From assembly GCA_031260865.1 (NCBI GenBank), contig JAISKQ010000062.1, forward strand, positions 1 through 29,196: a stretch of DNA of 29,196 nt, given 5' to 3'. The notes beneath the pieces were generated by a model. It saw only the letters and a list, made by a program, of their open reading frames with translations. It was not told where the DNA came from and ran no database searches. This DNA comes from Prevotella sp. Its GTDB lineage: Bacteria > Bacteroidota > Bacteroidia > Bacteroidales > Dysgonomonadaceae. Below are positions 315 through 24,479 of the stretch, one piece after another. Each line of letters begins with the position of its first letter. The stretch's first letter is position 1. The translations under genes and the position numbers were made by a program.

Positions 315-2327
315 ATGACAAGAAAAGCAAACCTGAAATTAGCCGCTAAATATTTTCCGAAAGAGCCAAAACCTATCATCGACACCGCGCGAAGAAGCGA
401 CGGTTCGCGAACAAACCATAATGTACTTATGGACGCGTTTGTCGCCTGGACAGGTTTGGACAGCTTCAGGAGAAAGGCTGAACGCAATAAGGTGTTTACC
501 TTCTCCGACCAATGGAGCGACAGGATACCCGATCCCGACGGCTGCGGAAGCATAACCGAAAGGCAGCATATCATCAATCAGGGCAGCGTCCCTTTGCAGA
601 ACAACAGGATAAGGGGAATCGTGCGCTCGGTGTCCGGCGTATTCCAATCGCAACAGACCGAACCTGTTTGCGTGTCCCGGGACAGGGACAAACAATCGAA
701 AGGGGAAATGATGTCTTCCACGATTCAGTATGTCTATCAGTTGAATAAGTTATGGAGCTTAGACGCTTCGTGCTTTACGAACTTCCTTGTCACAGGAGCG
801 GGCATTTTTAAAAGTAATTGGGGTTGGCGTAATGAGAAGATGGACGTTTGGAACGACCTGATAAACTATAACCGGTTCTTTGTAGATAACCACATGGAAG
901 ATCCGCGCCATTGGGATTGCCACTTGGCAGGGGAAATACATGACTTGGGGATATATGACGTCATCGCCAAGTTCGGGGATGGTTCGGAAGAGAAAGAAGA
1001 AGCATTAGAAAGAATATATGCCAACTGTGATAAAGACAGGACTATCGCGTATGCTGAAAGTTTCATGGGTAACAGCGCGAAACGCCATAAAAATTTCTTT
1101 GTTCCGGAAGATCCTACCCGATGCAGGGTCATTGAGATATGGAAGAAGGAAAGTAAAAAGAGGTACTTATGCCATGATACCTTATCGGGTGACGTATATA
1201 AAATAGAACTGTCCGATATAGGAGCTATACGGCAAGAAAACGAGATCCGTAAAACGGAGCAACTGTCCCAAGGCATAGAACCCGAAGATTTAAGGCTTAT
1301 CAAAGTTCAACGATTTGTCGATAACTATTGGTATTTCTATTTCATGTCTCCTCAAGGAGATATACTGAAAGAAGGCGAAACGCCATACTGGCATAAGATG
1401 CACCCTTATTCATTTCGTTTGTATCCGTTCTTTGACGGACAGATATTTCCGTTTGTATCGGACTTCATCGACCAACAAAAATATATAAACCGACTGATAA
1501 CATTGGATGATTTTGTAAGGCGCGCGTCAGCAAAAGGCGTGTTGGCGATACATGAAGATTCGATACCGGAAGGAACGAGCGTGAAAGATTTCGCGGACGA
1601 ATGGGCGGTATTTAACGGCGTCATCGTATATACAGGAAAATCGGGCGTGCCGGCGCCTCAACAGATTGTTTCCAACTCTCAACAATTAGGCATTACTGAT
1701 ATGCTTCAAATACAGCTGAAGCTATTGGAAGATATTTCAGGCGTACAGGGAGCGTTACAGGGTCAAGCGCCTAAGTCAGGAACACCCGCGGCTTTGTATA
1801 TGCAACAAACTCAAAACGCCGCCACATCCCTTACAGAACTGTTCGAGGCGTTTAGGGAATTGAGAGAAGAAAGGGATATAAAGAATATGAAGTTGGTGCA
1901 ACAGTTCTACACCGAACCGCGCTATATCAATATCAACGGCGGCAACGCGCGTCCCGAAACAATGATATACGATCCGAATACTGTACGCAACGCGGAATTT
2001 GACCTCTCTATAACAGAAAGCACATCAACTCCCGCATACAGGCTTGTGATGAACGACTTCCTGATGCAGCTGTTCCAAGCGCAACAAATATCATTGGAGG
2101 AATTGCTGCAAAACGGCGCGTTCCCATTCGCCGATAAATTACTCCAATCGATACAGGCTCGGAAAGAAGAAGCACAGGCGGCACAGCAAGCAATGACGCA
2201 AGGCGGTCAGATGCCACAAATGCAACAGGGCGCAATGGCATCGCCGGAGATACAACAACAGTTACAACAAAATACGAACCCGCTTGTACAGCAAATGTTG
2301 GCAGGTAATAATAAAGCACAGGTATGA
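315..2327 (+). CDS. Phage portal protein
   Basis: At 670 residues the protein has the size expected of large podovirus-type portals. It lies at the head of the capsid block. The first part has the look of a portal clip/stem region rich in aromatic and charged residues. The C-terminal 60 residues are a disordered Gln/Met/Ala tail (QQ-rich, for example QMPQMQQG), common at portal C-termini. The ATG at 315 is the first start after stops in the leader. Its stop overlaps the next start (ATGA), so the two genes are translationally coupled. The portal forms the dodecameric ring through which DNA enters and leaves the capsid. The call rests on length, position and general character rather than a catalytic motif. 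No terminase gene precedes it, unlike the common order; the large terminase is 13.5 kb downstream. Confidence 0.8.
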   Translation: MTRKANLKLAAKYFPKEPKPIIDTARRSDGSRTNHNVLMDAFVAWTGLDSFRRKAERNKVFTFSDQWSDRIPDPDGCGSITERQHIINQGSVPLQNNRIRGIVRSVSGVFQSQQTEPVCVSRDRDKQSKGEMMSSTIQYVYQLNKLWSLDASCFTNFLVTGAGIFKSNWGWRNEKMDVWNDLINYNRFFVDNHMEDPRHWDCHLAGEIHDLGIYDVIAKFGDGSEEKEEALERIYANCDKDRTIAYAESFMGNSAKRHKNFFVPEDPTRCRVIEIWKKESKKRYLCHDTLSGDVYKIELSDIGAIRQENEIRKTEQLSQGIEPEDLRLIKVQRFVDNYWYFYFMSPQGDILKEGETPYWHKMHPYSFRLYPFFDGQIFPFVSDFIDQQKYINRLITLDDFVRRASAKGVLAIHEDSIPEGTSVKDFADEWAVFNGVIVYTGKSGVPAPQQIVSNSQQLGITDMLQIQLKLLEDISGVQGALQGQAPKSGTPAALYMQQTQNAATSLTELFEAFRELREERDIKNMKLVQQFYTEPRYININGGNARPETMIYDPNTVRNAEFDLSITESTSTPAYRLVMNDFLMQLFQAQQISLEELLQNGAFPFADKLLQSIQARKEEAQAAQQAMTQGGQMPQMQQGAMASPEIQQQLQQNTNPLVQQMLAGNNKAQV

Positions 2328-2821
2328 AGCCACTTACATTTATATATTCACATGAAAATGTCTTTCAGGGCGTAAAACAAGAGAGTTCGCAGCATGCTAT
2401 CCGCAAAAGCGATAAGGATGCAAACCCTCTGTTTGAACAATTAGTATTCGATGAAGCCTATTTGCCAAAATTCAGGGAATTATTTTTCGACGCACAGGCG
2501 GAAGTCACTTCTGCCGTATCAAGATATATGAGGGATATTCCGGCGGAACCCGAATATTTTGAGACACAGGATTTCTCAAAAGACAGGGATTATACATTCA
2601 GCCTGTTGATGCCGGATGATTTTGATATGCATATGGCGAAACCTTGCGATATTAAGATAAAGCAGTTCCTGATCGCCTATATTATGTATCGATGGTTGGA
2701 AACAAAGCTGCCGGAAGAATCGGCTATCTATATGGAAAGGGCTGGCTCCGTACTGTCGGAAGCTAAAAATTTATTAGAAAGAAGGCTTAACCCTATTAGA
2801 AGGAAGCACAGGTTATGGTAA
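2324..2821 (+). CDS. Phage protein coupled to portal, possible head-tail connector
   Basis: This 165-residue protein starts inside the portal stop codon (ATGA overlap), so its translation is probably coupled to portal synthesis and its product is likely needed alongside it. It is soluble and mostly helical, with acidic and aromatic patches, and ends in a strongly basic tail (RRLNPIRRKHRLW). No membrane segment or enzyme motif is visible. By position and size a connector or portal-associated head protein is the most reasonable guess, but I do not recognise the family with confidence. It ends 8 bases from the convergent antitoxin gene, where the plus-strand late block is interrupted by the minus-strand cassette. 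Confidence 0.6.
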   Translation: MKPLTFIYSHENVFQGVKQESSQHAIRKSDKDANPLFEQLVFDEAYLPKFRELFFDAQAEVTSAVSRYMRDIPAEPEYFETQDFSKDRDYTFSLLMPDDFDMHMAKPCDIKIKQFLIAYIMYRWLETKLPEESAIYMERAGSVLSEAKNLLERRLNPIRRKHRLW

Positions 2822-2828
2822 GGTTTTC

Positions 2829-3101
2829 CTATTCTCTTGAGGCTATTTTATGTATTGCGGGGAAAATACACTTTCTTTTTTTTGCTCTCTTTTTATACAT
2901 TTCCCTTATATCCGCCTCTATACCTACCAGCAATTCATCAGCCGTCATACCTTTTTCTAAATCTTCATCTGTTATCAATCTTTCTTTTACTACCAAATGA
3001 ATCATTTTGTTTCCTCGTTTGATGACGACTTCCTGTTTCTCCGCCAAATCCAGGTATTTCTTTTGTTCGGCTCTCAATTCTGTCGGACTAATGACTATCA
3101 T
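2829..3101 (-). CDS. Orphan Phd/YefM-family antitoxin
   Basis: The N-terminal 50 residues match the Phd/YefM antitoxin fold: VISPTELRAEQKKYLDLAEK, then a VVIKRGNKMIHLVV strand pair. In this family the region dimerises and binds operator DNA, while the C-terminal tail neutralises a RelE/YoeB- or Doc-type toxin. The tail here is basic (KKRAKKRK) rather than the usual acidic or hydrophobic helix. No toxin gene lies downstream: the next gene is convergent phage structural sequence only 8 bases away. An inverted repeat containing TGTACA, the core reported for YefM operators, lies just upstream at 3133-3150. It could be a solitary antitoxin that counters host toxins, or a remnant of a toxin-antitoxin pair. 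Confidence 0.78.
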   Translation of the reverse strand: MIVISPTELRAEQKKYLDLAEKQEVVIKRGNKMIHLVVKERLITDEDLEKGMTADELLVGIEADIREMYKKRAKKRKCIFPAIHKIASRE

Positions 3102-3132
3102 GATGTACTGTTTTTTTGGTTTATGTGGTAAA

Positions 3133-3150
3133 TGTACAGATAAACGTACA
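3133..3150. promoter_or_regulatory. Candidate antitoxin operator (TGTAC-N8-GTACA)
   Basis: The inverted repeat TGTAC, 8 bases, GTACA lies 32 bases upstream of the antitoxin start. The left arm is a full TGTACA hexamer, the core reported for YefM-type operators. Phd/YefM antitoxins typically repress their own promoter through such palindromes. The surrounding AT-rich sequence contains TACATTTA and TACGTTTA on the minus strand, near matches to a Bacteroidetes -7 box. Confidence 0.45.
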
Positions 3151-3184
3151 TATATTAAAGGGATGGAGTACTTTTTTTATTACC

Positions 3185-3694
3185 TTATTTTTTAATGTTA
3201 TGATTATCATATATGGAAATCGGTATGGATATAATAAATCCTACTATCATGGATGAGAGATGAAGTACAAAATTACTGTTGTGTTTAAAGAAACTAATAA
3301 TAAGTGATATAAGAACCACAGACAGGAATAGCAGGTATTTTTTAGTATCTGCTATTTTTATATTCTTACTGTATATTGTCATACCGAAAAATAGTCCAAA
3401 CATCGCGTATATCATTGCGGATGCCCCGACAGTAGGAATATCGTACATCGCGATAAAAGAAGCCGCGAAAGAAACAGCGATAATAGACGCGGAAAGTATC
3501 CACATATTCACAAACTTTTCCATCGTGCGGAACATACCTGTAAAAGCCAATGAGTTTATTATTAAATGCACTACTCCGGAATGTTGAAACATATATGTAA
3601 AATGCGTGTATAATGGAGATTGATTTGTATATCCTAGTTCTAATCCGCAGAAAACGAAGACTATAATAAATATAAGCACATAGATATACTTCAT
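3185..3694 (-). CDS. Rhomboid-family intramembrane serine protease
   Basis: This 169-residue polytopic membrane protein carries the rhomboid landmarks in order. They are an H-S-G-V-V-H-L-I-I-N stretch (His43, Asn47) in an early helix, GASA with candidate nucleophile Ser92, and LHLSS with candidate base His145. The Ser-to-His distance of 53 residues equals that of E. coli GlpG (Ser201/His254). The usual GxSG is GASA here, a tolerated change. At least five hydrophobic segments are visible and there is no extra domain, so it is a minimal core enzyme. Rhomboids cut transmembrane segments of substrates inside the inner membrane. The start codon overlaps the upstream gene's stop (ATGA), which implies coupled expression. 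A protease of this kind is not a normal phage assembly component; superinfection exclusion or another host-interaction role is inference. Confidence 0.8.
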   Translation of the reverse strand: MKYIYVLIFIIVFVFCGLELGYTNQSPLYTHFTYMFQHSGVVHLIINSLAFTGMFRTMEKFVNMWILSASIIAVSFAASFIAMYDIPTVGASAMIYAMFGLFFGMTIYSKNIKIADTKKYLLFLSVVLISLIISFFKHNSNFVLHLSSMIVGFIISIPISIYDNHNIKK

Positions 3695-4086
3695 GTGTAT
3701 AATTTTGATTGTGGTTTTTTTAGTAGTTCGTAATAAATATCTTCCGCTCTTCTTTCCGATATATAGAATCGCGGGGCTGATTGTTCGGCAATTATTTTAG
3801 TTATCCAAAAAATGTCTATACCGGGATTCTCATTTTTTATCTTCCGGGATCTTTTCAATATTTCCAGATGCAGTAATTTTTTAATTTCATTCTTCGGGAG
3901 TTTCATTCCGTTTCGTTTAATTATGGCTGAATATTCCCTTCGGTGCAGGTAGAAAGATTTTGCAGGGTGAAGTATAGCCTTTGAGACTATTTCAGAAACA
4001 GAAAGATTTGTTTCTTTATTTCGTACCTGTTCGCAGGCGTTAAAGAAATCGCTATCCCTGTCTTCCCTATAAAACAACTGTGCCAT
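3691..4086 (-). CDS. Unknown protein coupled to rhomboid protease
   Basis: A soluble, basic, helical protein of about 131 residues when started at the ATG at 4086 (a TTG at 4092 would add two residues). It begins MAQLFYRED and ends in a lysine-rich tail. Visible features are an SEIVSKAI...HPAKSFY region and a C-terminal APRFYISERRAEDIYYELL segment that could be a helix-turn-helix-like DNA- or RNA-binding element. I recall similar APRFYVS-type motifs in small uncharacterised Bacteroidetes phage proteins, but I cannot assign a function. The last four bases overlap the rhomboid start (ATGA), so the two form a bicistron. A TAnnTTTG box just upstream suggests that the pair has its own promoter, opposite to late transcription. 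Confidence 0.65.
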   Translation of the reverse strand: MAQLFYREDRDSDFFNACEQVRNKETNLSVSEIVSKAILHPAKSFYLHRREYSAIIKRNGMKLPKNEIKKLLHLEILKRSRKIKNENPGIDIFWITKIIAEQSAPRFYISERRAEDIYYELLKKPQSKLYT

Positions 4087-4103
4087 ATACAATAATTTAC
4101 ATA

Positions 4104-4111
4104 CAAAATTA
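4104..4111 (-). promoter_or_regulatory. Candidate -7 box (TAATTTTG) for the minus-strand cassette
   Basis: On the minus strand, TAATTTTG matches the Bacteroidetes TAnnTTTG -7 consensus 18 bases before the ATG at 4086. No clear TTTG -33 element is present at the usual spacing. If real, it would let the unknown protein and rhomboid be made from the prophage independently of the late operon. Confidence 0.4.
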
Positions 4112-4232
4112 TCCGATATACAATGTTTAGATAATGAATAAGCGTTATAGTTTTCTGCCCACGCGCCTTTTCCCGCATTATCCGCATATAAATATTCGCT
4201 TATTTCTTTTTTTTGTACTCAACAGAGCAAAC

Positions 4233-4251
4233 AAAGGTCACAGACCTTTTT
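4233..4251 (+). promoter_or_regulatory. Hairpin AAAGGTC-ACA-GACCTTT with T tract before scaffold gene
   Basis: A perfect 7-bp stem with a 3-base loop is followed by further T residues, 31 bases before the scaffold start. It could act as a small terminator, ending read-through, or as a structured leader. The core GTC-NNN-GACCT followed by an AT-rich run recurs after the capsid gene (6436-6445) and at the end of the late block (18372-18381), so it may be a phage-specific control element. Confidence 0.4.
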
Positions 4252-4281
4252 ATTTTCCATTAATAATTAATTCAATTTGCT

Positions 4282-5049
4282 ATGGCAGAGATAGAAGAAA
4301 AAGTAGAAGAAGTAACAGAACAGCCCTTGAAAGGTCGCGCTGCCTGGCAAGACCGATACAGAAAGGCTAATCCTAAGGCAGGAGAAGATATTGATGATGA
4401 AGACTTGTTTGAATACGCTAACAGCGGTTATTCAGACGCAGAAAACAAGTATAATCAACTAAACAGCGCGAACAGTAAACTTGCGGAAGTTGTCGCAGGC
4501 GACCCTCGGTTAGGCGCCGCGTTGTCTATGGTTGCCGGGAAAAGTAAAAAATCACTTCCTTACGCCATGGGTAGCGTTTACGGTAAAGACTGGATGGACG
4601 GCGACTTGGAAGATTTTGAAGCCGGCTACCAAGAGAACCTGAAACAATTGGCAGAAAGCCGTAAGTTACAGGAAGAAGCCGCAAAGAATACTGAACAATC
4701 TATTCAGCATATTGACAAATACATTTCGGATAATCAACTTAGCGAAGAAGAAGCGGCACAATTGAATGAGAACATTGTCGCGTTTGCCGAAAACCTGCTT
4801 ATGGGTATTGTTCCCCCTGCCCTGATAGATTTAGTGCATAAAGGACTTAACTATGAACAGGATGTGCAGGACGCTATCGATACGGGAGCCGTACAAGCGA
4901 AGAATGAAAGGATAGATCCTCAATTAAGAAAACTAACCGACACTTCCGATGTGGTTGATATGGGAAGTGCGACAGGTTCAGGAAAGAAAAGACAGGCGGC
5001 CGGAAAGCAGAAAGGCAGCTTCTATGACGACATAAAAGAAGAAATATAA
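4282..5049 (+). CDS. Probable capsid scaffolding protein
   Basis: At 255 residues, the protein is acidic at the N-terminus (MAEIEEKVEEVTEQ), strongly charged throughout, rich in Glu/Gln/Lys helices with coiled-coil character around residues 115-165, and basic near the C-terminus (GKKRQAAGKQKG). It lies 28 bases upstream of the major capsid gene. This combination is typical of internal scaffolding proteins, which template capsid shell assembly and bind the coat protein through a basic C-terminal helix. There is no protease motif, so it is not an obvious fused maturation protease. The assignment is by composition and position, not by sequence family. Confidence 0.7.
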   Translation: MAEIEEKVEEVTEQPLKGRAAWQDRYRKANPKAGEDIDDEDLFEYANSGYSDAENKYNQLNSANSKLAEVVAGDPRLGAALSMVAGKSKKSLPYAMGSVYGKDWMDGDLEDFEAGYQENLKQLAESRKLQEEAAKNTEQSIQHIDKYISDNQLSEEEAAQLNENIVAFAENLLMGIVPPALIDLVHKGLNYEQDVQDAIDTGAVQAKNERIDPQLRKLTDTSDVVDMGSATGSGKKRQAAGKQKGSFYDDIKEEI

Positions 5050-5077
5050 TAACATAACAATCAATAATTTATTAGCA

Positions 5078-6433
5078 ATGAAACAGAAGATTTTGAAATT
5101 GAAAGATAGCGGACTGTTTATGATAATGGTCATGCTATTATGTTCCCTGTTTGGGATATGCGATGCTTCGGCGATGACCGCGGATGTGATTAAACCGGCT
5201 GACGGCGGCGCGGTAAGAACGGACGCGATGACCACTCATACGGATACAAGAGTAGATTCACCGAATTTACTTTTAGATACCATAGATGAAAAAGTTACCA
5301 AGATCAGGCCACATGACGTAGTACTGGATACTATATCCCGACAGATTAAAGATATAAAGACAAGTAATAATCAAACGATAAGGCATTATGCCATTGACGT
5401 TATCGACCTAACCGCCACGTTGAGCGCAGCGGTTACCGCGGGTTCCAGCCAAACGGCCATAACAACATCGAACGACAGCATATTCGCAAGCGAGCAAACA
5501 ATCTTAGTAGATGGCGTTCAAGGTTATAAAGAGGATGGTACGACCGTAGATCCCGACAGGCAGTTGATGTTATATATAATAGGAAAAGACACAAGTAATC
5601 ATCCTTTAGTTACCGCGGTAAACGGTTCAGGCACAAACGGCGATATTATTCCTGCTATTCCTATAAATACTAAACTAACACGTATGGGACGCGCCGGAGC
5701 AGAGACACAGATACAAACAGATGCTTATAGCGGCGTTCCTACCGACTTTCCTCAATTCCTGCAAAAATTCATGGCACAGATTGAAATGTCTGAAATATTT
5801 GAACGTGCCGACAAAGAAGTGAATTGGGACTTTACCGATACAGAAGAAGAAGCGGTGTTCGATATGAAGCGCGTGCAAAACGTAACATATTGGAAAGGTA
5901 TTCGCAGACGTATTAAGAAGAAAAACGCCCATACACAAAAAGCAGAAGATATTTACTTTACGGAAGGTATATGGACACAAGCAGGTAAGGACTTTTCATT
6001 CGGGGGCGTTCCTGTTGATGTGAAAAATATAGTCACGCTTATGAAACATGCCTTTACCGGAAATGCTTCAGGGAAGAAAAAACTGTTGATAGCCGGTAGC
6101 GATGTTATCGAAGCATACGAACAGGTTGAATATAACCGCATCGTTGACGTGGGCGCCAAGATGCAGGCGTACGGACTTGAATTTAATTCTATCGTTTCTA
6201 AATTCGGTACCCTATTGGTGGTGCACGATCAGACATTGGATGATATGGGTATGTCTGACAAGTTCTTTATTCTCGACGCCGACTTCCTTCGTAAGTGGAC
6301 GATGGGATGGCGAGTAAACGACTTCGACTTTAGAAAATCAGGACAATCCGACGCCGACGGCCGCGGATTGATGGAAATATGCGGATTGGTACTCAAAAAC
6401 CCTAAAGCGCACTCGAGAGGCTCACTGAGCTAA
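5078..6433 (+). CDS. Major capsid protein with signal-peptide-like N-terminus
   Basis: This 451-residue protein follows the scaffold gene and has features of an HK97-fold coat protein. Residues 33-110 form a variable N-arm. Residues 225-330 hold a shell-domain-like stretch with a basic WKGIRRRIKKKN loop. The C-terminal part has the pattern AKMQAYGLEFNSIVSKFGTL followed by FFILDADFLRKW, reminiscent of SU10/DUF5309-type capsid proteins. Residues 1-32 are unusual: a basic start (MKQKILKLK), a 16-residue hydrophobic core (GLFMIMVMLLCSLFGI), then CDASA before Met33, which looks like a signal peptide with an AxA cleavage site. An alternative start at 5174 (Met33) would remove it, but would leave a 124-base gap after the scaffold gene. 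The family call is moderate; the capsid role is well supported by context. Confidence 0.78.
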   Translation: MKQKILKLKDSGLFMIMVMLLCSLFGICDASAMTADVIKPADGGAVRTDAMTTHTDTRVDSPNLLLDTIDEKVTKIRPHDVVLDTISRQIKDIKTSNNQTIRHYAIDVIDLTATLSAAVTAGSSQTAITTSNDSIFASEQTILVDGVQGYKEDGTTVDPDRQLMLYIIGKDTSNHPLVTAVNGSGTNGDIIPAIPINTKLTRMGRAGAETQIQTDAYSGVPTDFPQFLQKFMAQIEMSEIFERADKEVNWDFTDTEEEAVFDMKRVQNVTYWKGIRRRIKKKNAHTQKAEDIYFTEGIWTQAGKDFSFGGVPVDVKNIVTLMKHAFTGNASGKKKLLIAGSDVIEAYEQVEYNRIVDVGAKMQAYGLEFNSIVSKFGTLLVVHDQTLDDMGMSDKFFILDADFLRKWTMGWRVNDFDFRKSGQSDADGRGLMEICGLVLKNPKAHSRGSLS

Positions 6434-6474
6434 AGTCGCCGACCTTTTTATTAATCATCTATAATATTTACGAA

Positions 6475-6882
6475 ATGGCAAAGAAAAAATATATATCATT
6501 GACAGGGATACAATATACGTTCCCTGTCATAATCAAAGTGAAAGAAAAGGATAAGGTTGTTTGGGTATCCTTAAAAGGGAATGAGAACGATTATGTGACT
6601 GCTAACGAAGATGTTCAGAAAGCGATTGAAGCCACCGACAAATTCAAGAACAAAGAAATTGGAATCTCTGAAAAGCAGTTAGCCGATGAAAATAAAAACG
6701 ATAAAAAAACCAAAATCGACTTTGATCCCGCGGAGTTTGAAAGTGTAACCGATATAAACGGCGTCATAGAAGTATTGAATGGCGAACCATATAAAGTAGC
6801 GAAGAATAAACTTAAAACTCCGGACAGTATAAAATCGGCAATGGAAACTTATAATGTTTCATTTCCGAATCTTACATTTTAA
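6475..6882 (+). CDS. Small phage head protein, function unknown
   Basis: A 135-residue soluble protein follows the capsid gene. The N-terminal half is a run of beta-strand-like segments (YTFPVIIKV, KVVWVSLKG). A charged linker follows at about residues 70-95, and a C-terminal helical segment resembles short assembly or Rho-N-like repeats (SVTDINGVIEVLNGEPYKVAKN). It could be a head decoration or head-completion protein. I do not recognise the family. The GTC-NNN-GACCT hairpin element lies in its leader and a terminator-like hairpin follows it, so it may be expressed on its own as well as with the capsid gene. Confidence 0.6.
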   Translation: MAKKKYISLTGIQYTFPVIIKVKEKDKVVWVSLKGNENDYVTANEDVQKAIEATDKFKNKEIGISEKQLADENKNDKKTKIDFDPAEFESVTDINGVIEVLNGEPYKVAKNKLKTPDSIKSAMETYNVSFPNLTF

Positions 6883-6908
6883 GATTTTATCATGATAACT
6901 ATAAAAGG

Positions 6909-6940
6909 GCTGATAGCGCTAGAATGCTAGCAGCTTTTTT
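6909..6940 (+). terminator. Intrinsic terminator within the late block
   Basis: GCTGATAGC and GCTAGCAGC form a 9-base stem with one mismatch around an 8-base loop, followed directly by six T residues (6935-6940). It sits between the head and adaptor genes. It would reduce or gate transcription from the capsid module into the tail module. Confidence 0.65.
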
Positions 6941-6988
6941 GTATCGCAGATACTTTTATTAAACAAAAGATATGACAACGGAGAATCA

Positions 6989-7648
6989 ATGAAGGCACTA
7001 TTTATAGCACGCGTGATGCAGATAATGAACGAACTCGGATGGAACGATACCGAATCGAACGCTTTTTTAGGTTCAGACGCTACTAAAGTGGAAGGACATA
7101 TAGAAAGCGTATTTGTGGACGCGTGGCGCAAAGCCGTCAATATTCTGCCAAAGAACTACTTCCGTATAAAAGATTTTTCGGAACAAAAATCAGTATCAGA
7201 CATAACCAGAGGAACAGGATATATCGTTTTGCCGGAAGATTTTTACACGTTATATTCCTTTCGGATGAAAGGCTGGCAAGTAGCTTGCGAGACGATTATA
7301 GACAGTTCAGACCCATTGGCGAGAGTACAAGCCAATGAATATACACGCGGTAATATTTGCCGTCCCGTGTGCGTGAAGAGCGTAAAAAAAACAGCTTCCG
7401 AAGAAGACCCATTAGATATTGAGTTCGTTAATGTACTTGAATATTATTCACTGCCTAAAGGAATAAAACACGAAATATCCGAAGCAATCTATATACCATT
7501 GATTCAAGAATTGAACGAGGGAATATATATAGGAGACAATTTATTTATACCACTCGCCTACTTATGCGCAAGTTTGGTATTTTATATTTTTGAAAAGCCG
7601 GATATAGCACAGGTATTAGAGAAAAAAGCAACCGAAATAATTAAATGA
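6989..7648 (+). CDS. Probable head-to-tail adaptor (tail tube A / gp4-like)
   Basis: At 219 residues it has the layout of connector or gatekeeper proteins of short-tailed phages. An N-terminal helical region (IMNELGWNDTESNAFL) is followed by a beta segment with the motif IVLPEDFYTLYSFRMKGW, recalling the LPxDFxxLxS pattern I associate with adaptor proteins. A C-terminal helical bundle follows (PLIQELNEGIYIGDNLFIPLAYL). Such proteins dock on the portal ring and join it to the tail. The start overlaps the stop of a six-codon upstream frame (6972-6992, MTTENQ) by ATGA. The next gene starts one base after its stop codon. The position between head and tail genes agrees with the role, but the family match is from memory only. 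Confidence 0.65.
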   Translation: MKALFIARVMQIMNELGWNDTESNAFLGSDATKVEGHIESVFVDAWRKAVNILPKNYFRIKDFSEQKSVSDITRGTGYIVLPEDFYTLYSFRMKGWQVACETIIDSSDPLARVQANEYTRGNICRPVCVKSVKKTASEEDPLDIEFVNVLEYYSLPKGIKHEISEAIYIPLIQELNEGIYIGDNLFIPLAYLCASLVFYIFEKPDIAQVLEKKATEIIK

Positions 7649-7649
7649 T

Positions 7650-8771
7650 ATGAGTAAATGTTGTGATAAAAAAGCAATAAACAACTTAGCGGAAGGTCTA
7701 AAAAAGATACCGGTATTACGTTACCTGAAAGACCCTGTCGTTCATTTGGAAGATTTGTATATTAAGTATCCGCAAGGAGGAGAGTACGGTTGGTTTTCTT
7801 TTGTGGAAACGAAGCAGATGTTCGCTTACTGGGATATTGAAACCAAAGAATGGAAATATTTAGTTGACCTTACTGCTATTAATAATTCAATAACTTTCAT
7901 TTTACAGCAAATCGATGACATCCATAATCAATTGGAAGGGTTTGTAAATATAGACGAAAGATTAAATGCCATTGAGGATAACATAAGCAGTATAAATGAA
8001 GCCTTAGATGATAAAGTATCCAAATCGGAATACGAATCATTATTAGAATTAGTAGAGAGCATAAAAATATACATGGATCATGTAGGGAATAACCGTTGCC
8101 TGTACTTCAAGATGGAGAGCCTTACCTCCCAAATGTTTATAGGTGAAACGCTTCAACTCTATTATGTGAAAGCGTTCAATGTGGCTTCATTGACTATCGG
8201 GAACGACACGATAGCGATAGATGAACTGATAGATTATGAAATACCGGCAGGAAGCATTATCACTGTAAATATCACAAAAGGACTTACCGATAACGAATCT
8301 TATATTTATATGCTTGCCACAACGGCGAATGAGATACCACAGCCGGAACCTATACCAGATAATTCTATTCCGAATAATGTCGTGGTCATGTACAGCGGTT
8401 CGGTAGAGAATATACCCGAAGGCTGGGCGTTATGCAACGGACAGATCGTAGACGGAAAACAAACGCCTGATATGCGAAATCGGTTTGTAGTGGGATATAA
8501 TCCCGATAATATTAATTATAACGCTATCGGTAAAACAGGCGGTAAGGATTTTATCACACTTTTACTGGCAAATATACCGTCACATACGCATGACATAAAA
8601 TATACAAATAAGAAATGGGGGGATAACGCGAATAATAGACCTTTCAACCTGTGGAATGAAACTAAAAATTCAGATTATTCAGGCAGGACAGAAGCAACCG
8701 GGAAAGATAATCCTGATCCTATCGACATTCGACCTCTTTATTATGTAATCGCCTTTATCATTAAATTGTAA
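7650..8771 (+). CDS. Tail fibre/collar protein with phage tail-collar domain
   Basis: Of the 373 residues, 1-75 form an adapter region, about 85-140 a predicted coiled coil (QQIDDIHNQLEGFVNIDERLN and following), and about 150-235 a beta-rich middle. The C-terminus is a tail-collar domain. The motifs are IPEGWALCNGQ, then TPDMRNRFVVGY and LANIPSHTHD, diagnostic of collar domains found at the distal ends of fibres in many phages and related particles. It probably forms a trimeric fibre attached near the adaptor and used for host contact. It starts one base after the previous gene's stop, which supports a head-tail operon. Confidence 0.82.
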   Translation: MSKCCDKKAINNLAEGLKKIPVLRYLKDPVVHLEDLYIKYPQGGEYGWFSFVETKQMFAYWDIETKEWKYLVDLTAINNSITFILQQIDDIHNQLEGFVNIDERLNAIEDNISSINEALDDKVSKSEYESLLELVESIKIYMDHVGNNRCLYFKMESLTSQMFIGETLQLYYVKAFNVASLTIGNDTIAIDELIDYEIPAGSIITVNITKGLTDNESYIYMLATTANEIPQPEPIPDNSIPNNVVVMYSGSVENIPEGWALCNGQIVDGKQTPDMRNRFVVGYNPDNINYNAIGKTGGKDFITLLLANIPSHTHDIKYTNKKWGDNANNRPFNLWNETKNSDYSGRTEATGKDNPDPIDIRPLYYVIAFIIKL

Positions 8772-8775
8772 CAAT

Positions 8776-8973
8776 ATGAAATATAATATAAAATATAATG
8801 ATCAAATTTTTGAGATTGACGATTTAGTTTTGTTTAGAGACCAATCTCCTGAATTTAAAGATGCTTACAATACCATTCAAAACGGTTCTGTAGCGAAGTT
8901 TGATAATGCTGTCGCCGAATTAACGTTCGGTGGTCGTGTAGTATTTACCATTAATAATGACGACAATGTATAA
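8776..8973 (+). CDS. Small protein in tail gene cluster
   Basis: A 65-residue acidic protein with alternating strand/helix character (MKYNIKYNDQIFEIDDLVLF) starts four bases after the collar gene and overlaps the next tail gene. No motif is recognised. It could be a fibre chaperone or a small accessory tail protein. The tight spacing and overlap suggest translational coupling with the following spike gene. Codon use is AT-rich like the genes after it. Confidence 0.6.
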   Translation: MKYNIKYNDQIFEIDDLVLFRDQSPEFKDAYNTIQNGSVAKFDNAVAELTFGGRVVFTINNDDNV

Positions 8974-10849
8974 TTTTAAAGATAAATACCCTGGCGTAAA
9001 TATGACAGATGATGCACTAAAATGGTGTTCCTGTTTAGGCGATAAAGACATTACTTGGAATCAAACCACCAGGCAGCATCCTAAGAATACCCATGTTAAC
9101 GTTGGCGGTAATACAGATGCTGCCGTTACAGCTTATCTGTTATCATCCGGTATTCATACCGGTGTATTTTCATTTAGCGGTGCGCCAGCCAATTCTTTTA
9201 GACATTCGATTATTTGCGGTGATAGCATGGATAACACCGTATTGACTCAGCATCCGACATATTACCAAGGAGACGGCAGGTTTAGACATGATACGTATTT
9301 TAATGATATAAAATTAGACTTTCATGTTGGTGACAGGGGATTTTCAATAATGACTTGTCGTAATTGTGATATTAAAGAATTTGGTACATACACTGATATT
9401 GGTTTGTGTAAAATAAGAAATGCAGTAACTTACACAGGAAATGTCTCAAGAATATCCGTAATTGGTGCAGAAGAACAAGAATTAAAAGGCGCTAATGTGA
9501 ATTTAACGTTGTTTGATTCAAGTAGTATCTATATAGAAGATCAAACTGTTTTAGACAAGTCTATTCAAACCTATCAGGCTTTTAATAATTGTACTTTTAA
9601 GTTTGGTAGCGAGACTGAATACGCAGCTTTGATTGGCAATACCGTTGCTGAATTACGACAGAACTTTGTTGACAGATGTACCAATCAAGGCTTTACAGTT
9701 CCTACCATCACTGAATATGGAGATACCGATTTACCGGCAGGTAGATGGATTTTCTCAAATAATTCAGCTATTGACGGTTTAGTTCTTAAATATTCCGATA
9801 TTAACTTATTTGAAATAAGCAGATTAATTAGATTCGGCTACACTGATGATAGGAATGACAGCATCCCTATCACAACAGACACGACCAAGGCGGGGTCTTT
9901 CAACCCTGCGGGGGCAAACGCTGCCTTAGACGTTACGGACGAATCAATATCTTTCCAATCAAATGTGGACATCTCGCAACCGAACACAGGTAGAGCAGAT
10001 AGTAATATAATATGGCTTGGCGGTAGGAAGCAATTGTCAAAAATAAATCTATTTAACAATTTTCCTATGATGAATGGAGTTTATGTTGACAGCACACCCT
10101 CTTTAAGTAATATTCCTGTTACGGAAGTTGAACTTCAAGAGAATGGTATGTATAAAATGTATATAGTGAGGTCTACCGATGAGGAGATTGCCACTGTTAC
10201 ATATAATGGTTCAACCTATTCATCTAGTATTGTTACCAGAAATAATTTATTTAAAAGTGTATCCGGTGTAACTACTTTTACCAGTTCAGAGAACGCCGTT
10301 GTGTATGAAGTGTTAGACTTTGTAGTTTATAATACGATTCAAATGCGTGTTATTGACCAAATTCCTACAGATATAATTTCAGCCGGAAATTTACAGACAG
10401 GGTATTGGTATCTTGTCGAACCGAACTCACCGACCGATACAACCGGCACTGTAACATACAACGGTAATACATATCCTGCATACGGCTCATTTATAGCAGT
10501 AAACGGAGTACCTAATTTTACTATTAACGGATCTGCTCATTTACGTAGATGTTACAGGCAAGACTATGATAATCCGAATGATGAAGTGACTGATTTAGCG
10601 TTCTGGTTAAATAAGCAAAAGCCTAAATGGGTTGATGTGCTACCATCTGACTTACGTTGTTTGAAGTATCTTAATAATGATAAACAAGCAGAGATGCAAT
10701 TAGATGAGAATAATAAGTATATCGCTTCAGGACACCCTGATTTTTATAACAAAATATTAGGAACAAACGGCGTTATTGAACCGTCGTTTAATATAAACGG
10801 TACTTATATACAATTACGATTATTAGTTACGACTTTAAACCCGATGTAA
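8957..10849 (+). CDS. Tail spike/receptor-binding protein, beta-helix-like, with duplicated C-terminal module
   Basis: A 630-residue protein rich in short beta turns (FNDIKLDFHV, CDIKEFGTYTDI, NCTFKFGS), as in parallel beta-helix spikes. The start is ATG 8957 or, six bases shorter in overlap, ATG 8966. The C-terminal half holds two copies of a roughly 65-residue module, around residues 388-455 and 471-535. Each pairs a MYKMYIV/YWYLVE strand with VTYNGSTY or VTYNGNTY. The module probably folds as a small beta domain for glycan or surface binding. Its AT-rich composition and duplicated domains suggest recombinational turnover of host-range determinants. No catalytic residue for depolymerase activity could be singled out. 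Confidence 0.62.
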   Translation: MTTMYNFKDKYPGVNMTDDALKWCSCLGDKDITWNQTTRQHPKNTHVNVGGNTDAAVTAYLLSSGIHTGVFSFSGAPANSFRHSIICGDSMDNTVLTQHPTYYQGDGRFRHDTYFNDIKLDFHVGDRGFSIMTCRNCDIKEFGTYTDIGLCKIRNAVTYTGNVSRISVIGAEEQELKGANVNLTLFDSSSIYIEDQTVLDKSIQTYQAFNNCTFKFGSETEYAALIGNTVAELRQNFVDRCTNQGFTVPTITEYGDTDLPAGRWIFSNNSAIDGLVLKYSDINLFEISRLIRFGYTDDRNDSIPITTDTTKAGSFNPAGANAALDVTDESISFQSNVDISQPNTGRADSNIIWLGGRKQLSKINLFNNFPMMNGVYVDSTPSLSNIPVTEVELQENGMYKMYIVRSTDEEIATVTYNGSTYSSSIVTRNNLFKSVSGVTTFTSSENAVVYEVLDFVVYNTIQMRVIDQIPTDIISAGNLQTGYWYLVEPNSPTDTTGTVTYNGNTYPAYGSFIAVNGVPNFTINGSAHLRRCYRQDYDNPNDEVTDLAFWLNKQKPKWVDVLPSDLRCLKYLNNDKQAEMQLDENNKYIASGHPDFYNKILGTNGVIEPSFNINGTYIQLRLLVTTLNPM

Positions 10850-10858
10850 GAAAAGTGA

Positions 10859-10929
10859 TGAGTAATAAGTATTAAGTAATAAGTACTTTGAACTTATTCC
10901 TTTCTTGTAACTCGTAACTTGTAACTTTT
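10859..10929. repeat. Short 7-bp repeat array between tail genes
   Basis: Four units of the form AGTAATA/AGTATTA/AGTAATA/AGTACTT are followed, after a spacer, by CTTGTAA/CTCGTAA/CTTGTAA-type units and a T run. An AATAAGT stem pairs with ACTTATT across the spacer, so the region can fold. The first units share the AGTAATA heptamer with the long array at the left edge. The region is non-coding and separates two tail genes. Confidence 0.7.
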
Positions 10930-10934
10930 TTATT

Positions 10935-11162: not shown

Positions 11163-11179
11163 ATTAAATAGCAAAAGCC

Positions 11180-13198: not shown

Positions 13199-13216
13199 TA
13201 TTAATGATTTTATAAA

Positions 13217-13507: not shown

Positions 13508-13509
13508 AT

Positions 13510-13833: not shown

Positions 13834-13837
13834 AGTT

Positions 13838-14906: not shown

Positions 14907-14917
14907 AAACAAGGATT

Positions 14918-15261: not shown

Positions 15262-15828
15262 ATGAAAAAAGCGACAATATCACTGCTATCCATTTTAGCG
15301 AGCCTTGCTATCGGATTCTTTATCGGACGCTCAACCGCCGATGAGGGCGAAATAAGGTACGTGAGAGGAGAACAAACATCCGGTAGTGTTCCGGCAGGAA
15401 ATATAAAGTTGATTAAGGAGGAAACCCCTGTTAGCCCTATATTGCCAATAAAATCAATAGCGACTATGCCGATAGTCGTTCCGATGTCGCCTGTCGTGGA
15501 TACCGCCGCTATTATTTTAGAATACGAAAAACGCCGAACATACAGCGCGATACTTTTCGATGATAAAAAATTAGGAAGATTAGAGCTTCACCCGACAATA
15601 CAATATAACCAATTGTCAAGTATTGATTACGATTTCACGCCTATTCAAAAAGAGATTATAAAGTGCCCGACCTTTGAGCCGTTTATTTCCGCTTCCTATT
15701 CAACACTGAATTATATCAGCGTTGGAGGAGGACTATTCTATCACAGTTTAGGATTGGAATATAAATACTGGAAGAGTTTAGGTTCACAGCCTAATGGAAG
15801 TGAGTTCGGATTAAAATATAAGTTTTGA
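15262..15828 (+). CDS. Membrane-anchored lysis/late protein, function unknown
   Basis: About 188 residues from ATG 15262. The start follows the previous stop by two bases; an upstream frame from 15205 lies inside the Tad2-like gene and is rejected. It opens with a hydrophobic segment (ATISLLSILASLAIGFFIG) that could be a signal anchor, followed by a proline/valine-rich stretch (residues 40-80) and a C-terminal part ending in GSEFGLKYKF, with the alternating aromatic pattern of outer-membrane-like strands. It resembles uncharacterised Bacteroidetes phage proteins found near endolysins (possibly DUF6808). A spanin-like link between inner and outer membranes is possible but unproven. Confidence 0.55.
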   Translation: MKKATISLLSILASLAIGFFIGRSTADEGEIRYVRGEQTSGSVPAGNIKLIKEETPVSPILPIKSIATMPIVVPMSPVVDTAAIILEYEKRRTYSAILFDDKKLGRLELHPTIQYNQLSSIDYDFTPIQKEIIKCPTFEPFISASYSTLNYISVGGGLFYHSLGLEYKYWKSLGSQPNGSEFGLKYKF

Positions 15829-17924
15829 TTAATGTAAAACAAATAATAACAGAGAACGCCCGAAGGCATAAAGAAATAAATAAACCATACGATCCGGTAA
15901 CAGGAGATGGGTGTCAGGGTGAAAGGGTGTGTCTGAAGATAAAGGACGCACCCTCACCATTATTGTACATACCTGAACCGATGATGAAAGAGGAAGTTTG
16001 TCAGCTTCTTACAAAACATGGTACCATCGCTAAACTATTCAAAGTGAATAAAGAAGAGTTGACCGAAGATGCTTATTTCGATTTTTGGATAGGATTCTGC
16101 GAACTCCGTTATAAATATGACTTTGAATTTTTCGCTATTTCTTGCATTACGATTCGACATAAACTATCCGGAAAAGATGTTCCATTCAAACTGAACAGGG
16201 GACAGCAAAGATTATTAGACCGCTTAGAGATAATGAGGTTAGCAGGCGTGCCTATTCGCCTGATACTACTTAAATCCCGTCAATGGGGAGGATCAACACT
16301 GGTACAGCTTTACATGAAATGGATACAGATTATTCACAAAAGAAACTGGAACAGTGTAATATGCGCGCACTTGCATGATGCCTCGAAGAATATACGTGCC
16401 ATGTTGAGCCGTTCGCTTAATAGTATGATGCCTATAAATGGTATAAAGCATCACTTAAAACCATTTCAGGGTACACAGAATATTAAGGAAATTCCAGAAC
16501 GCGGTTGCCTTATTACTGTTGGTACGGCTGTTGAGCCTGATTCGGTGCGTTCACAGGATACAAAGATGGCGCACTTTTCCGAAATAGCCTATTTTCCAAA
16601 CACAGAAAACAATAATCCTGAAAACTTAGAAGCATCTATTATATCTTCCATTCCCGCCGAACCTTATACGATGATTATCCGAGAGAGCACCGCCAATGGT
16701 ATAGGCGACCATTTCTATACAGAATGGGAAAAAGCCAAGAAAGGCGAATCGGTTTATGATTATATTTTTGTAGAGTGGTATATGATTGATATGTATAGCA
16801 AGCCTTTCAATGGAAATTATATTCAGCATAACGGAAAACTGAAAAAAGGGACGATAGAAGATTTTGTATTGACAATGAATAAATATGAAATCAACCTATT
16901 CACCAATCATAAGGGTTGCACGTTGGAGAATATCAACTGGAGGAGATTTATGCGCGCGCAGCTTCCGAGCGAAACGAAAATGAAGCAGGAATATCCATCG
17001 GATGATATTGAAGCCTTCCAAGATTCGGGTACGCCCGCGTTCAGGGCAGAAGATATAGAAGCCATGCGTAAATATTGCAAATTGCCGGCAGCTATCGGCG
17101 CTTTGTCTTCTTTGTGTTCTCCGAACCTTGCTAAGCTGGAACCGAAGAGGAGGAAAGAAATATTATCAGAACTCAAATTTATTCCGGATGAACAGGCATT
17201 AGAAGATTTATCGACCGGAGACAGCAAACTGAAAGAATTACGCGAAAGGGATAAGCTGAGGCTATGGGAATATCCTGATACGGATATAAATGTATCGAAC
17301 CGCTATGTAGTAGTTTTTGACCCGCAAAAGGGATTATCGGAAAAAGCAGACTGGGGCGTCATGGTCGTTTATGATCGATATTGGATGATGTATAAGGGGA
17401 AACCGGAGATAGTGGCGGAATGGCGCGGACGTATCGATAAGGATATCGCTTTGTGGGTTGCCGCGCAGATAGCAACGTTTTATTGTAACGCGCTCTTAGT
17501 CGTGGAGAGTAATACTTACGAATCGGAATCGAAGTATGATGATTCGGAATTTATATTCGATACTATCTCCAACTATTACAAGAACCTGTACAGCCGAACT
17601 TCGACAGATAAAATAAAAGAGGGCGAACCGGCGGTGTATGGATGGCATACGAATAGAAGTACCAAGCCTTTGATCATTGATAACTATGTGGCTGAACTTC
17701 GGGAAGAAGGTTATGTAGAACGTAACGAAGAAGCCCTGAATGAAGCAAGGGTATATGAACAGAAGAAAAATAAATCGTTCGGAGCAAAAGAAGGTAAGCA
17801 TGATGATATACTTATGACGCGTATGATAGGTTGTCACATCTGCCGGGAGCTTCCTTTGCCGAAAGTGATAGATGATGAACCAAAGCACAAAATTAAAAAG
17901 CCTGTCGGCGTATCCAGTTTCTAA
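15825..17924 (+). CDS. Terminase large subunit
   Basis: A 699-residue packaging motor. The ATPase part has a Walker A-like KSRQWGGST at 150-158 (Gly in place of the usual Lys at position 156) and a Walker B-like MAHFSEIAY around 248-256. The C-terminal nuclease domain shows Asp499 in VVVFDPQKG, Glu561 in LVVESN and Asp660/Asp661 in KHDDILM, the acidic triad of RNase H-fold terminases. Translation starts at TTG 15825, overlapping the previous stop; the in-frame ATG at residue 53 would drop a conserved-looking PYDPVTGDG region. The protein cuts and pumps DNA through the portal. Here it is the penultimate gene of the late block, after lysis, rather than next to the portal, and no small subunit is visible. 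Confidence 0.93.
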   Translation: MINVKQIITENARRHKEINKPYDPVTGDGCQGERVCLKIKDAPSPLLYIPEPMMKEEVCQLLTKHGTIAKLFKVNKEELTEDAYFDFWIGFCELRYKYDFEFFAISCITIRHKLSGKDVPFKLNRGQQRLLDRLEIMRLAGVPIRLILLKSRQWGGSTLVQLYMKWIQIIHKRNWNSVICAHLHDASKNIRAMLSRSLNSMMPINGIKHHLKPFQGTQNIKEIPERGCLITVGTAVEPDSVRSQDTKMAHFSEIAYFPNTENNNPENLEASIISSIPAEPYTMIIRESTANGIGDHFYTEWEKAKKGESVYDYIFVEWYMIDMYSKPFNGNYIQHNGKLKKGTIEDFVLTMNKYEINLFTNHKGCTLENINWRRFMRAQLPSETKMKQEYPSDDIEAFQDSGTPAFRAEDIEAMRKYCKLPAAIGALSSLCSPNLAKLEPKRRKEILSELKFIPDEQALEDLSTGDSKLKELRERDKLRLWEYPDTDINVSNRYVVVFDPQKGLSEKADWGVMVVYDRYWMMYKGKPEIVAEWRGRIDKDIALWVAAQIATFYCNALLVVESNTYESESKYDDSEFIFDTISNYYKNLYSRTSTDKIKEGEPAVYGWHTNRSTKPLIIDNYVAELREEGYVERNEEALNEARVYEQKKNKSFGAKEGKHDDILMTRMIGCHICRELPLPKVIDDEPKHKIKKPVGVSSF

Positions 17925-21691: not shown

Positions 21692-22879
21692 TTAACTTTC
21701 GTTTTCTTCGTCTTCGTCCTGTGTTTCATCAATATCGAGTAGCTTTTTCATTTCATTGATGGCGGTCACTCCGAGCATGCGAGCATACAAAAGAGATTGT
21801 TTCATATTAGTATGTCCCATAATCTTTGGTATGGCTTCGATACTTACACCTTTGTTTATTAAATAGGTGCCAAATGTGTGTCTTCCAGTGTGCGTGGTAA
21901 CGTTCTTATCTATTCCGATTCGTTCTATTAGTGTGCCCAGATAGTCGTTATATTTCTGGTTACTGATAACAGGTAGTGTATAGTCGTATTTCTCTGCTAT
22001 CTCTTCCGCTATCGGGAGAAGCAAAATAACATAGGGTACTCCTGTCTTATTTCTGGTGCCGTGAATTTCCTTTTGCCCATTGATAACTTGTATGCTATCT
22101 CTACTAAACGATTCGAGGTCGGTATATGACAAACCTGTATAACATTGGAAAATAAATAAATCTCTTACCCTTCCCAGACTTTCTTTTGCTGCTCCTTTTG
22201 GCTTATAGTTTATTATTTGCTTTACTTCCGATTCGATAAGATATATAGGATCGTCCGATTTACCTTTTTTGAAAGTAAATTCATCGTAAGGATTACGTTC
22301 TATCAGTCCTCTTTTTCTGGCTTTTTCTAAATAACCTTTGAACAGAGAATGACGTTTATATAATGTAGGTTGTGATTTGATTGTTTTTTTTAGATGCAAA
22401 TCAAAGTCTTCAATTCTGCTATATGCGAGGTCGGCAAATATTTTTATCTTTCCGTATTCTTCCAGACGTTTTATGAATGAATTGTTATACTCCATCACTG
22501 ATAAGGAAACTTCACGTCTTTTTAGATCGGCTTTTATAAACTCTACTACATTAGCAGTCGATAAATCATCTTCTTTGTCCCAGTTGTCTATATCTTCCCA
22601 TGTTTCGCACTTATCGGAATAGACGTAAACCTGTACTATTGAAAAGATTTTATCTATTCGAGCTTTTATAACTGCTGCATTTGGATGTTTGATTATGGAC
22701 AGTCCACCGGAACCAACATCTGAATACTGACTTTTTAATATATATTCGTTTGTTGTAATATACTTTCTTCTTCTGGTCTTAGTGTCATACACCTTGATTT
22801 GAATAAGAGCTTCTTTCTTTGAATTATTTTTTGTTATACCTTTTCTATCAAAAACGTATGATAATACAACGCCATCCAT
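21692..22879 (-). CDS. Tyrosine site-specific integrase, Bacteroides type
   Basis: A 395-residue integrase in three parts: an arm-binding N-terminus (residues 1-90, basic DTKTRRRKYITTNE), a SAM-like core-binding domain (about 105-195) and a C-terminal catalytic domain. Catalytic positions are Lys278 (NKTG), His330-x-x-Arg333 (HTGRH), His356 (MGHTN) and Tyr365 (LLYARM). The first arginine of the family is replaced by Ser251 in CYTGLSYTDL, as in the CTnDOT integrase group. The acidic C-terminal tail (ETQDEDEENES) is non-catalytic. It faces away from tRNA-Ser and lies next to its 3' end, consistent with integration there. A -7 box and TTGTGATACC repeats lie just upstream. Confidence 0.92.
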   Translation of the reverse strand: MDGVVLSYVFDRKGITKNNSKKEALIQIKVYDTKTRRRKYITTNEYILKSQYSDVGSGGLSIIKHPNAAVIKARIDKIFSIVQVYVYSDKCETWEDIDNWDKEDDLSTANVVEFIKADLKRREVSLSVMEYNNSFIKRLEEYGKIKIFADLAYSRIEDFDLHLKKTIKSQPTLYKRHSLFKGYLEKARKRGLIERNPYDEFTFKKGKSDDPIYLIESEVKQIINYKPKGAAKESLGRVRDLFIFQCYTGLSYTDLESFSRDSIQVINGQKEIHGTRNKTGVPYVILLLPIAEEIAEKYDYTLPVISNQKYNDYLGTLIERIGIDKNVTTHTGRHTFGTYLINKGVSIEAIPKIMGHTNMKQSLLYARMLGVTAINEMKKLLDIDETQDEDEENES

Positions 22880-23092: not shown

Positions 23093-23107
23093 CTTACTTA
23101 TTTTCAG

Positions 23108-23192
23108 CGGAGAGATAGGGATTCGAACCCCAGGAACCTCTCAGTTCAACGGTTTTCAAGACCGCCGCAATCGACCACTCTGCCATCTCTCC
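23108..23192 (-). tRNA. tRNA-Ser (anticodon TGA), presumed phage attachment site
   Basis: The minus strand folds as an 85-base class II tRNA. The acceptor pairs are GGAGAGA/TCTCTCC with discriminator G at 23108, the anticodon loop CTTGAAA contains TGA, there is a long variable arm, and the T loop is GGTTCGAATCC. CCA is not encoded. The 3' end points towards the integrase, so the att core probably lies in the 3' half of the tRNA, which would be restored by phage sequence on integration. The second att copy is not in this window. Confidence 0.96.
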
Positions 23193-23365: not shown

Positions 23366-24479
23366 ATGATTACTGCAGACCAACTCAAAGAAGTGTTGGA
23401 GCGCGAGGACGCGCTGAGGAGGCATCTTTGACGTCGATGCTAAAAAAATACAACTCGAAGAGGAAGAATTAAGAACCCAAGTTCCCGGATTCTGGGATGA
23501 CGCGAAAACAGCGGAAGCCCAAATGAAAGTTATACGCGGATTAAAAGGCTGGATACAAGGATATAGCGAAGTAAAAGGAGCTGCCGAAGAGCTACAACTC
23601 GCTTTCGACTTCCAGAAAGAAGGCGTAACTTCTGAAGAAGAGGTAGATATAGCGTACGAAAACGCGTTGGAACGAATAGAAGCCCTTGAACTGAAAAATA
23701 TGCTCCGCCGCGAAGAAGACAAACTGGGCGCGGTTCTGAAGGTAAACAGTGGCGCAGGCGGAACCGAAGGGCAAGACTGGGCTTCGATGTTATTCCGCAT
23801 GTATCAACGCTGGTGCGAATCGAAGGGTTATAAAACAACCATCACCAACTGGCAGGATGGTGACGAAGCCGGAATAAAAACAGCCACATTACAAGTCGAA
23901 GGCGAATATGCTTATGGCTACCTGAAATCGGAGAACGGCGTTCACCGCTTGGTGCGCGTGTCGCCTTACAATGCGCAGGGAAAACGGATGACGTCTTTTG
24001 CTTCGGTATATGTCGTTCCTTTGGTAGATGATACAATTGAAATAGACATTAATCAATCCGATATCACATGGGATACATTCCGTTCGAGCGGAGCGGGAGG
24101 GCAGAATGTAAATAAGGTGGAAACGGGCGTCCGTCTGCATTATAAATACAAAGACCCTGAAACCGGCGAAGAGAAAGAGATTGTGATAGAAAACACGGAG
24201 AGCCGTTCACAGTTTGGGAATAAAGACAACGCGATACGTTTATTGAAATCTCAACTTTATGAACTGGAACTGGAACGACGCAGCCGCGAGCAATCTAAAA
24301 TAGAAGCCGGAAAGAAAAAAATAGAATGGGGATCGCAAATCCGCAGTTATGTCTTCGACGACCGCAGGGTGAAAGATCACCGGACAAATTATCAGACATC
24401 CAATGTGAATGCTGTAATGGATGGCGACTTAGATGCTTTTATCAAAGCATATTTAATGGAATACGGCGAAGAAGCATAA
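23366..24479 (+). CDS. prfB: Peptide chain release factor 2 with programmed +1 frameshift
   Basis: The frame from ATG 23366 reads 21 codons to an in-frame TGA at 23429-23431, then continues in the +1 frame from 23430 to 24479, giving about 370 residues. The site has the classic layout: AGGAGG, a three-base spacer, then CTT TGA C. The internal Shine-Dalgarno and UGA let RF2 levels control their own synthesis. The GGQ peptide-release motif is at 244-246. The stop-codon-reading loop is SPY where E. coli has SPF, a variant I recall from other Bacteroidetes. The gene is not broken. RF2 reads UGA and UAA in the ribosomal A site and triggers hydrolysis of the finished peptide. Confidence 0.97.

Follow-up and report, generated by a model that had tools for sequence, protein, structure and literature searches.

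The prophage in the window (the whole stretch of 29,196 nucleotides analysed here) encodes a minimal rhomboid intramembrane protease, the gene of which is a fixed member of the head and packaging module in a single large lineage of tailed Bacteroidota phages. The major capsid protein (MCP) of this lineage bears an N-terminal membrane segment, and we consider it close to an even chance that this segment is the likeliest substrate of a rhomboid that would reside in the host inner membrane. The full model remains tentative and falls short of an even chance: the MCP would be made with an N-terminal membrane anchor, a dedicated rhomboid from the packaging operon would cut it, and head maturation would proceed by intramembrane proteolysis.

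A known enzyme fold apparently serves here in an unexpected, core role. If the model is true, three Bacteroides phage isolates offer a way to test membrane-bound capsid assembly and release by an intramembrane protease. Bacterial rhomboids, for which to our knowledge few natural substrates have been described, would gain a natural substrate class, and cleavage of the MCP segment would be an unfamiliar route of virus head construction.

The prophage and its gene order

The host assembly consists of 335 contigs and is 74% complete; the window is its contig 80 and comprises a prophage followed by host-like genes (Table 1). The start codon of the MCP gene lies 28 bases past the stop of the putative scaffold gene. 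The gene for the large terminase subunit (TerL) is located away from the rhomboid; its product found no match in Pfam and reached only 12.7 bits in NCBIfam against a cut-off of 150. Beside the Phd/YefM-like ORF no toxin gene was recognised, and since no match to this ORF was listed for the nine loci compared below, it is not counted as part of the conserved gene pair.

Table 1. Features of the window and positions of the catalytic codons
Feature	Position	Strand	Basis or remark
Portal protein	315..2327	+	P22_portal, 123.5 bits
Head-side gene	2324..2821	+	phrog_19255, function unassigned; far side of rhomboid in nine loci
Phd/YefM-like small protein	2829..3101	-	PF02604 20.1 bits, below 29.8 cut-off
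Rhomboid intramembrane serine protease (predicted), 169 aa	3185..3694	-	Profile, fold, conservation
His145 codon	3260-3262		Rhomboid ORF
Ser92 codon	3419-3421		Rhomboid ORF
Asn47 codon	3554-3556		Rhomboid ORF
His43 codon	3566-3568		Rhomboid ORF
Partner gene, 133 aa	3691..4092	-	ATGA overlap with rhomboid start
Putative scaffold	4282..5049	+	phrog_22323, function unassigned; name "scaffold" from position
Major capsid protein (MCP)	5078..6433	+	SU10_MCP, 84.2 bits, cut-off 24.1
MCP N-terminal hydrophobic, signal-peptide-like segment, residues 12-37	5111..5188	+	Proposed rhomboid target
Large terminase subunit (TerL)	15825..17924	+	Similarity to isolate genes whose records note terminase
Tyrosine integrase	21692..22879		Adjoins tRNA-Ser
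tRNA-Ser	23107..23192	-	Likely attachment site with integrase (window 21692-23192)
Release factor 2-like ORF	23523..24479		By eye

The partner gene encodes an all-helical protein with two similar halves, as judged by eye, for which fold searches returned no match. Its product is possibly the small terminase subunit, a candidate assignment from position: in the rhomboid-less loci L049 and L173 the gene lies directly upstream of TerL.

A minimal rhomboid with an intact catalytic dyad

The rhomboid ORF starts with ATG and contains the catalytic-motif residues H43-x3-N47, G90-A-S92-A and H145. The 53 residues from Ser92 to His145 equal the spacing between Ser201 and His254 of GlpG. The rhomboid profile PF01694 matched the ORF with 48.7 bits (E 1.2e-12) against a cut-off of 22.6, and the match is therefore not due to chance. 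It was the only profile matched at E up to 1, when the prohead protease profiles PF04586, PF01343 and PF00574 were included. Among 49 related records 17 matched PF01694 at E up to 1 and 15 of them above the cut-off, the two weaker ones being the rhomboid-carrying loci L039 and L042.

The structure model of the ORF presents a small, bare six-helix rhomboid core. Ser92 is kept in 104/104 aligned rows and His145 in all 103 rows with a letter at this position (one fragment is gapped there); of the rows, 37 are locus copies and 67 are proteins from databases, and near-duplicates occur among them. Sequence and model together thus describe a minimal rhomboid with an intact active site, for which enzymatic activity, a membrane location, late expression and a substrate are predicted.

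The first-pass annotation had read the same motif order and dyad spacing in this ORF and had named a rhomboid protease with an intact dyad, placed on the opposite strand within the head gene block in an AT-rich cassette. The description holds throughout, with activity as a prediction: profile, fold and conservation agree, a structure model and an alignment of homologues (the two checks it had named) returned the rhomboid core and the conserved dyad, and the gene lies between the portal-side gene and the scaffold and capsid genes. The GC content of the ORF is 0.325, lower than that of the portal gene (0.46) and of positions 315-18383 as a whole (0.387).

A fixed place in the head and packaging module

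Nine loci were collected in the first scans of viral sequences and genomes. In all of them (9/9) the head-side gene and the scaffold lie on either side of the rhomboid, which runs counter to scaffold and MCP; additional ORFs precede the head-side gene in some. The partner gene was found upstream of the rhomboid in 8/9 loci in the first comparison and in the ninth (L011) in a later one. In the Bacteroides phage isolates BF1-TP2, BKO1-TP3 and BS-TP4, the partner, rhomboid and TerL genes follow one another in this order and diverge from scaffold-MCP. Their records name two of the rhomboids as such, and the third is labelled a glycoside hydrolase with a note on rhomboid structure. The gene 3' of the rhomboid is publicly annotated as "tail spike protein" in PQ571263, PQ571269 and PQ571277; two of these records, PQ571263 and PQ571277, have a note on the gene that indicates a terminase, and we identified it as TerL in PQ571263 and PQ571269.

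From all searches together 72 loci were retained, 37 with and 35 without the rhomboid; L017, L018, L021, L027, L029, L030, L035 and L087-L090 had been left out ahead of any counting as contig repeats. Carriers were contributed by rhomboid searches, the MCP search, capsid similarity in a phage collection and a genome search. The comparison set consists of 25 non-carriers and 28 carriers, the latter being the window and 27 others with capsid cores at least 10% apart. At 90% core identity 70 MCPs collapsed into 52 (27 from carriers, 25 from non-carriers), with the truncated L174 left out and L096 being devoid of an MCP. No match in the phage collection was obtained by tblastn with the rhomboid, though three records there contain distant relatives.

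In 28/28 carriers the rhomboid is encoded on the other strand than scaffold and MCP. TerL was visible in 14 of them, and in 11 of these 14 the rhomboid is the gene immediately upstream of it. Inheritance is linked to the scaffold: a single branch of the scaffold tree separates the 28 carriers from 21 non-carriers, with support of 94/85, just under the level that the tool marks with a star. The TerL tree (14 carriers, 22 non-carriers) requires two changes. A moron gene is recognised by patchy presence and a variable site; all 28 carriers share one site and one side of the scaffold tree, a result to be read with the provisos that some loci were found via the rhomboid itself, that the MCP-only search found the rhomboid in 21/53 loci and that the TerL tree needs two changes. 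The rhomboid is a fixed gene of the phage head and packaging module, unlike the usual swapped cargo, though some of the loci were found via the rhomboid.

These data bear on lysogenic conversion or superinfection exclusion, where the rhomboid would cleave a membrane protein of the host or of an incoming phage in the lysogen. The separate strand and a GC content below that of the head genes would suit such a role, as would the rhomboid of the Stenotrophomonas phage DLP5, which passages of the original paper place among moron genes (PMC5834331). Yet the invariant strand relation, the adjoining TerL and the single side of the scaffold tree argue against it, and no model matched the rhomboid gene in PADLOC, which covers described systems only; we regard this role as unlikely. 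The earlier claims that the protease is not needed for virion assembly, and that it represents a superinfection or host-remodelling function, find no support in the same observations.

Two individual loci deserve mention. L012 and the window are 40% identical in the MCP, 77% in the rhomboid and 84% in the scaffold, and it seems from these sequences that the capsid core was exchanged between phages and its neighbours were not. The L032 stretch reads as a sequence joined to its own reverse complement, with arms of about 4.9 kb, which is probably an assembly artefact.

The N-terminal segment of the major capsid protein

The MCP of the window contains a stretch of 17 residues from residue 12 with a Kyte-Doolittle mean of 2.54, followed by DASAMTADV, and resembles a signal peptide in this part. 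A hydrophobic segment precedes the capsid core in 36/36 carrier loci with an MCP and also in 34/35 non-carrier loci, the remaining one (L174) being cut by the contig end. In L031 and L036-L038 the segment is situated well inside the ORF. The distant rhomboid-less capsid relatives L169 and L170, as well as the capsid of phage SU10, are devoid of it.

Carriers conserve the segment at the sequence level. At MCP-core identities of 0.3-0.5 the segments of carriers are 0.339 identical (219 pairs; shuffled 0.225) and those of non-carriers 0.220 (232 pairs; shuffled 0.215), a descriptive contrast between pairs that are not independent. Measured against the scaffold, carriers and non-carriers are far apart in the middle bins (0.49 versus 0.22 at 0.3-0.4) and close at the ends (0.24 versus 0.21 at 0.1-0.2), and the gene g6989 behaves like the scaffold. 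TerL, available for 14/28 carriers, yields a small contrast (0.26 versus 0.22 at 0.4-0.5). In 14 carriers, identical residues share the same codon at a rate of 0.39 in the segment versus 0.31 in the core, which argues that selection in the segment acts mostly on the protein level.

A specific co-evolution of rhomboid and segment was also considered. Their divergence correlates with a raw r of 0.82 and, when the MCP core is controlled for, a partial r of 0.77. Once the scaffold, the partner and g6989 served as controls, the partial r shrank to 0.52 (n=28), 0.31 (n=24) and, within the subclade of the window, 0.24 (n=20, p 0.03). The raw co-divergence appears largely to reflect shared ancestry, and we keep the strong first result as weak support. 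A strict tie between rhomboid and capsid segment was rejected, since non-carriers also possess the segment and most of the examined loci resembling gene transfer agents (GTAs) are devoid of the rhomboid.

GTA-like capsid clusters in Bacteroidales chromosomes

The MCP was detected in 34/393 genomes of the order, in many of which the clusters do not look like complete prophages. Among 20 chosen stretches, scaffold-MCP pairs lie beside a class I fumarase gene in eight (L161, L163, L164, L165, L167, L168, L178 and L179), which carry the five family labels f60, f88, f109, f28 and f68, and beside an aminopeptidase P gene in three (L162, L166 and L176; f21). The identity of these neighbours was checked with Pfam on two of each. 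TerL is present in 16/16 MCP-bearing genomes tested, one of which (G065) contains an ordinary prophage. In the others TerL lies on the same contig at a distance of 13 to 92 kb in five genomes and on another contig in ten, where the draft contigs do not show the distance. The partner gene occurs in 27/31 genomes. By analogy, the scaffold-MCP clusters at recurrent sites with TerL elsewhere look like a Bacteroidales gene transfer agent. Faecalibacterium GTAs and lateral transduction in Bacteroidales are treated in passages of a paper on gut GTAs (PMC12946183), the main text of which does not contain the words "rhomboid" and "fumar".

A rhomboid follows the partner gene in two of 22 GTA-like loci (L181 and L186) and is absent or unrecognised in the other 20. 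By eye, both loci (L181:14533-15929 and L186:742-2162) show the partner and then a rhomboid ORF that extends into a spanin-like region; a similar gene without the rhomboid is present in L191 from G324 of the same genus.

The two ORFs are pertinent to lysis or release, in which the rhomboid would process a spanin, a holin or another late phage membrane protein. The rhomboid frame continues into a lipobox and a C-terminal membrane helix, a region that we liken to a one-piece spanin, and this continuation makes lysis-related processing a serious rival to capsid cleavage. In the window, however, the membrane proteins around the endolysin are some 10 kb off, and overall such a role has a low probability in our view.

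Proposed cleavage of the capsid protein and its alternatives

According to the capsid cleavage model, the rhomboid would sit at the host inner membrane and cut the N-terminal transmembrane segment of the MCP. The cut would detach MCP or proheads from the membrane; alternatively, it would rescue capsid protein taken by the export machinery. Prohead proteases (Peptidase_S78, S49 and ClpP-type enzymes, or T4 gp21) are soluble and act inside proheads. The window rhomboid would resemble them in acting in head maturation. The S78, S49 and ClpP-type profiles (PF04586, PF01343 and PF00574) matched 0/47 records of the lineage and its kin (29 carriers, 18 non-carriers), many of which are fragments, in a scan that covered these three profiles. 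Since the 18 non-carriers also gave no match to the three profiles, non-carrier capsids may need no protease, a point against the model. In T4, prohead formation is described as starting from an inner-membrane-bound portal (PMC9958956). The release of MCP or proheads by the rhomboid is suggested by this precedent, by the ability of rhomboids to cut membrane segments, by the conserved MCP segment and by the unmatched protease profiles.

Several observations weigh against this reading. Nearly all non-carrier loci keep the segment, and so do the GTA-like loci L161-L168 (8/8 capsids seen), although the rhomboid is scarce among such loci. The N side of the segment is basic, and by the positive-inside rule a basic N side predicts a periplasmic capsid domain; this predicted orientation is odd and counts against MCP cleavage. 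The segment also resembles an ordinary signal peptide, which host signal peptidase could cut, and other phage membrane proteins may be substrates of the rhomboid. The correlated divergence of rhomboid and segment, largely a matter of common descent, and the small conservation contrast obtained with TerL also count against the model.

General quality control during infection, with orphan or mis-inserted membrane proteins being cut and no single dedicated substrate, is improbable. The small bare six-helix form would fit this task, and three further rhomboid matches in the host assembly imply that the activity as such is nothing new to the cell; against it, the tight linkage to packaging genes and the conserved capsid segment in carriers suggest specificity. 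A non-proteolytic rhomboid-fold protein serving as binding or insertion factor is very improbable: the residue after the catalytic Ser varies (Ala, Ser, Thr or Gly, not always Gly) and three carrier loci (L039, L042 and L013) have HxxxC or HxxxT in place of HxxxN, but Ser and His occur in every aligned row reaching them, and pseudoproteases, by contrast, are not known to keep both.

Relation to known rhomboids

GlpG-type rhomboids (PF01694; E. coli and H. influenzae structures) share with the window protein the six-helix core, HxxxN, GxSx and the His of the last helix. Unlike GlpG, the window rhomboid has no cytoplasmic domain, consists of just 169 aa, is phage-encoded and is fixed in a head and packaging module; it scored far below the GlpG equivalog cut-off (TIGR04239; 12.7 versus 250 bits).

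Rhombosortase is a small rhomboid seemingly dedicated to a GlyGly-CTERM partner, whose gene it adjoins in most single-target genomes (PMC3237569). The likeness would lie in a small rhomboid that serves the sorting-type membrane segment of one partner. The window ORF reached 20.9 bits against the rhombosortase cut-off of 84 (TIGR03902), and the target proposed here is N-terminal and located on a capsid protein.

In the one literature library searched, a search on phage rhomboids gave no match on the phrase, and papers on DLP phages were among the matches when major capsid protein was added. Searches on membrane-anchored capsids and on the isolate names found nothing, those on DUF5309 and on rhomboid protease with prophage and Bacteroid returned only matches judged unrelated, and "intramembrane protease" appeared in none among the matches listed for phage capsid or prohead.

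The Stenotrophomonas phages DLP3 and DLP5 encode rhomboids, that of DLP3 being gene 93 with 175 aa (PMC7326821, PMC5834331). In the DLP3 table only a few genes separate it from genes for sugar and deacetylase functions (PMC7326821), and in the passages available the DLP rhomboids have no link to head genes. The DLP5 rhomboid is classed as a moron, whereas the window rhomboid is a fixed head and packaging module member in a lineage whose MCP bears a membrane segment.
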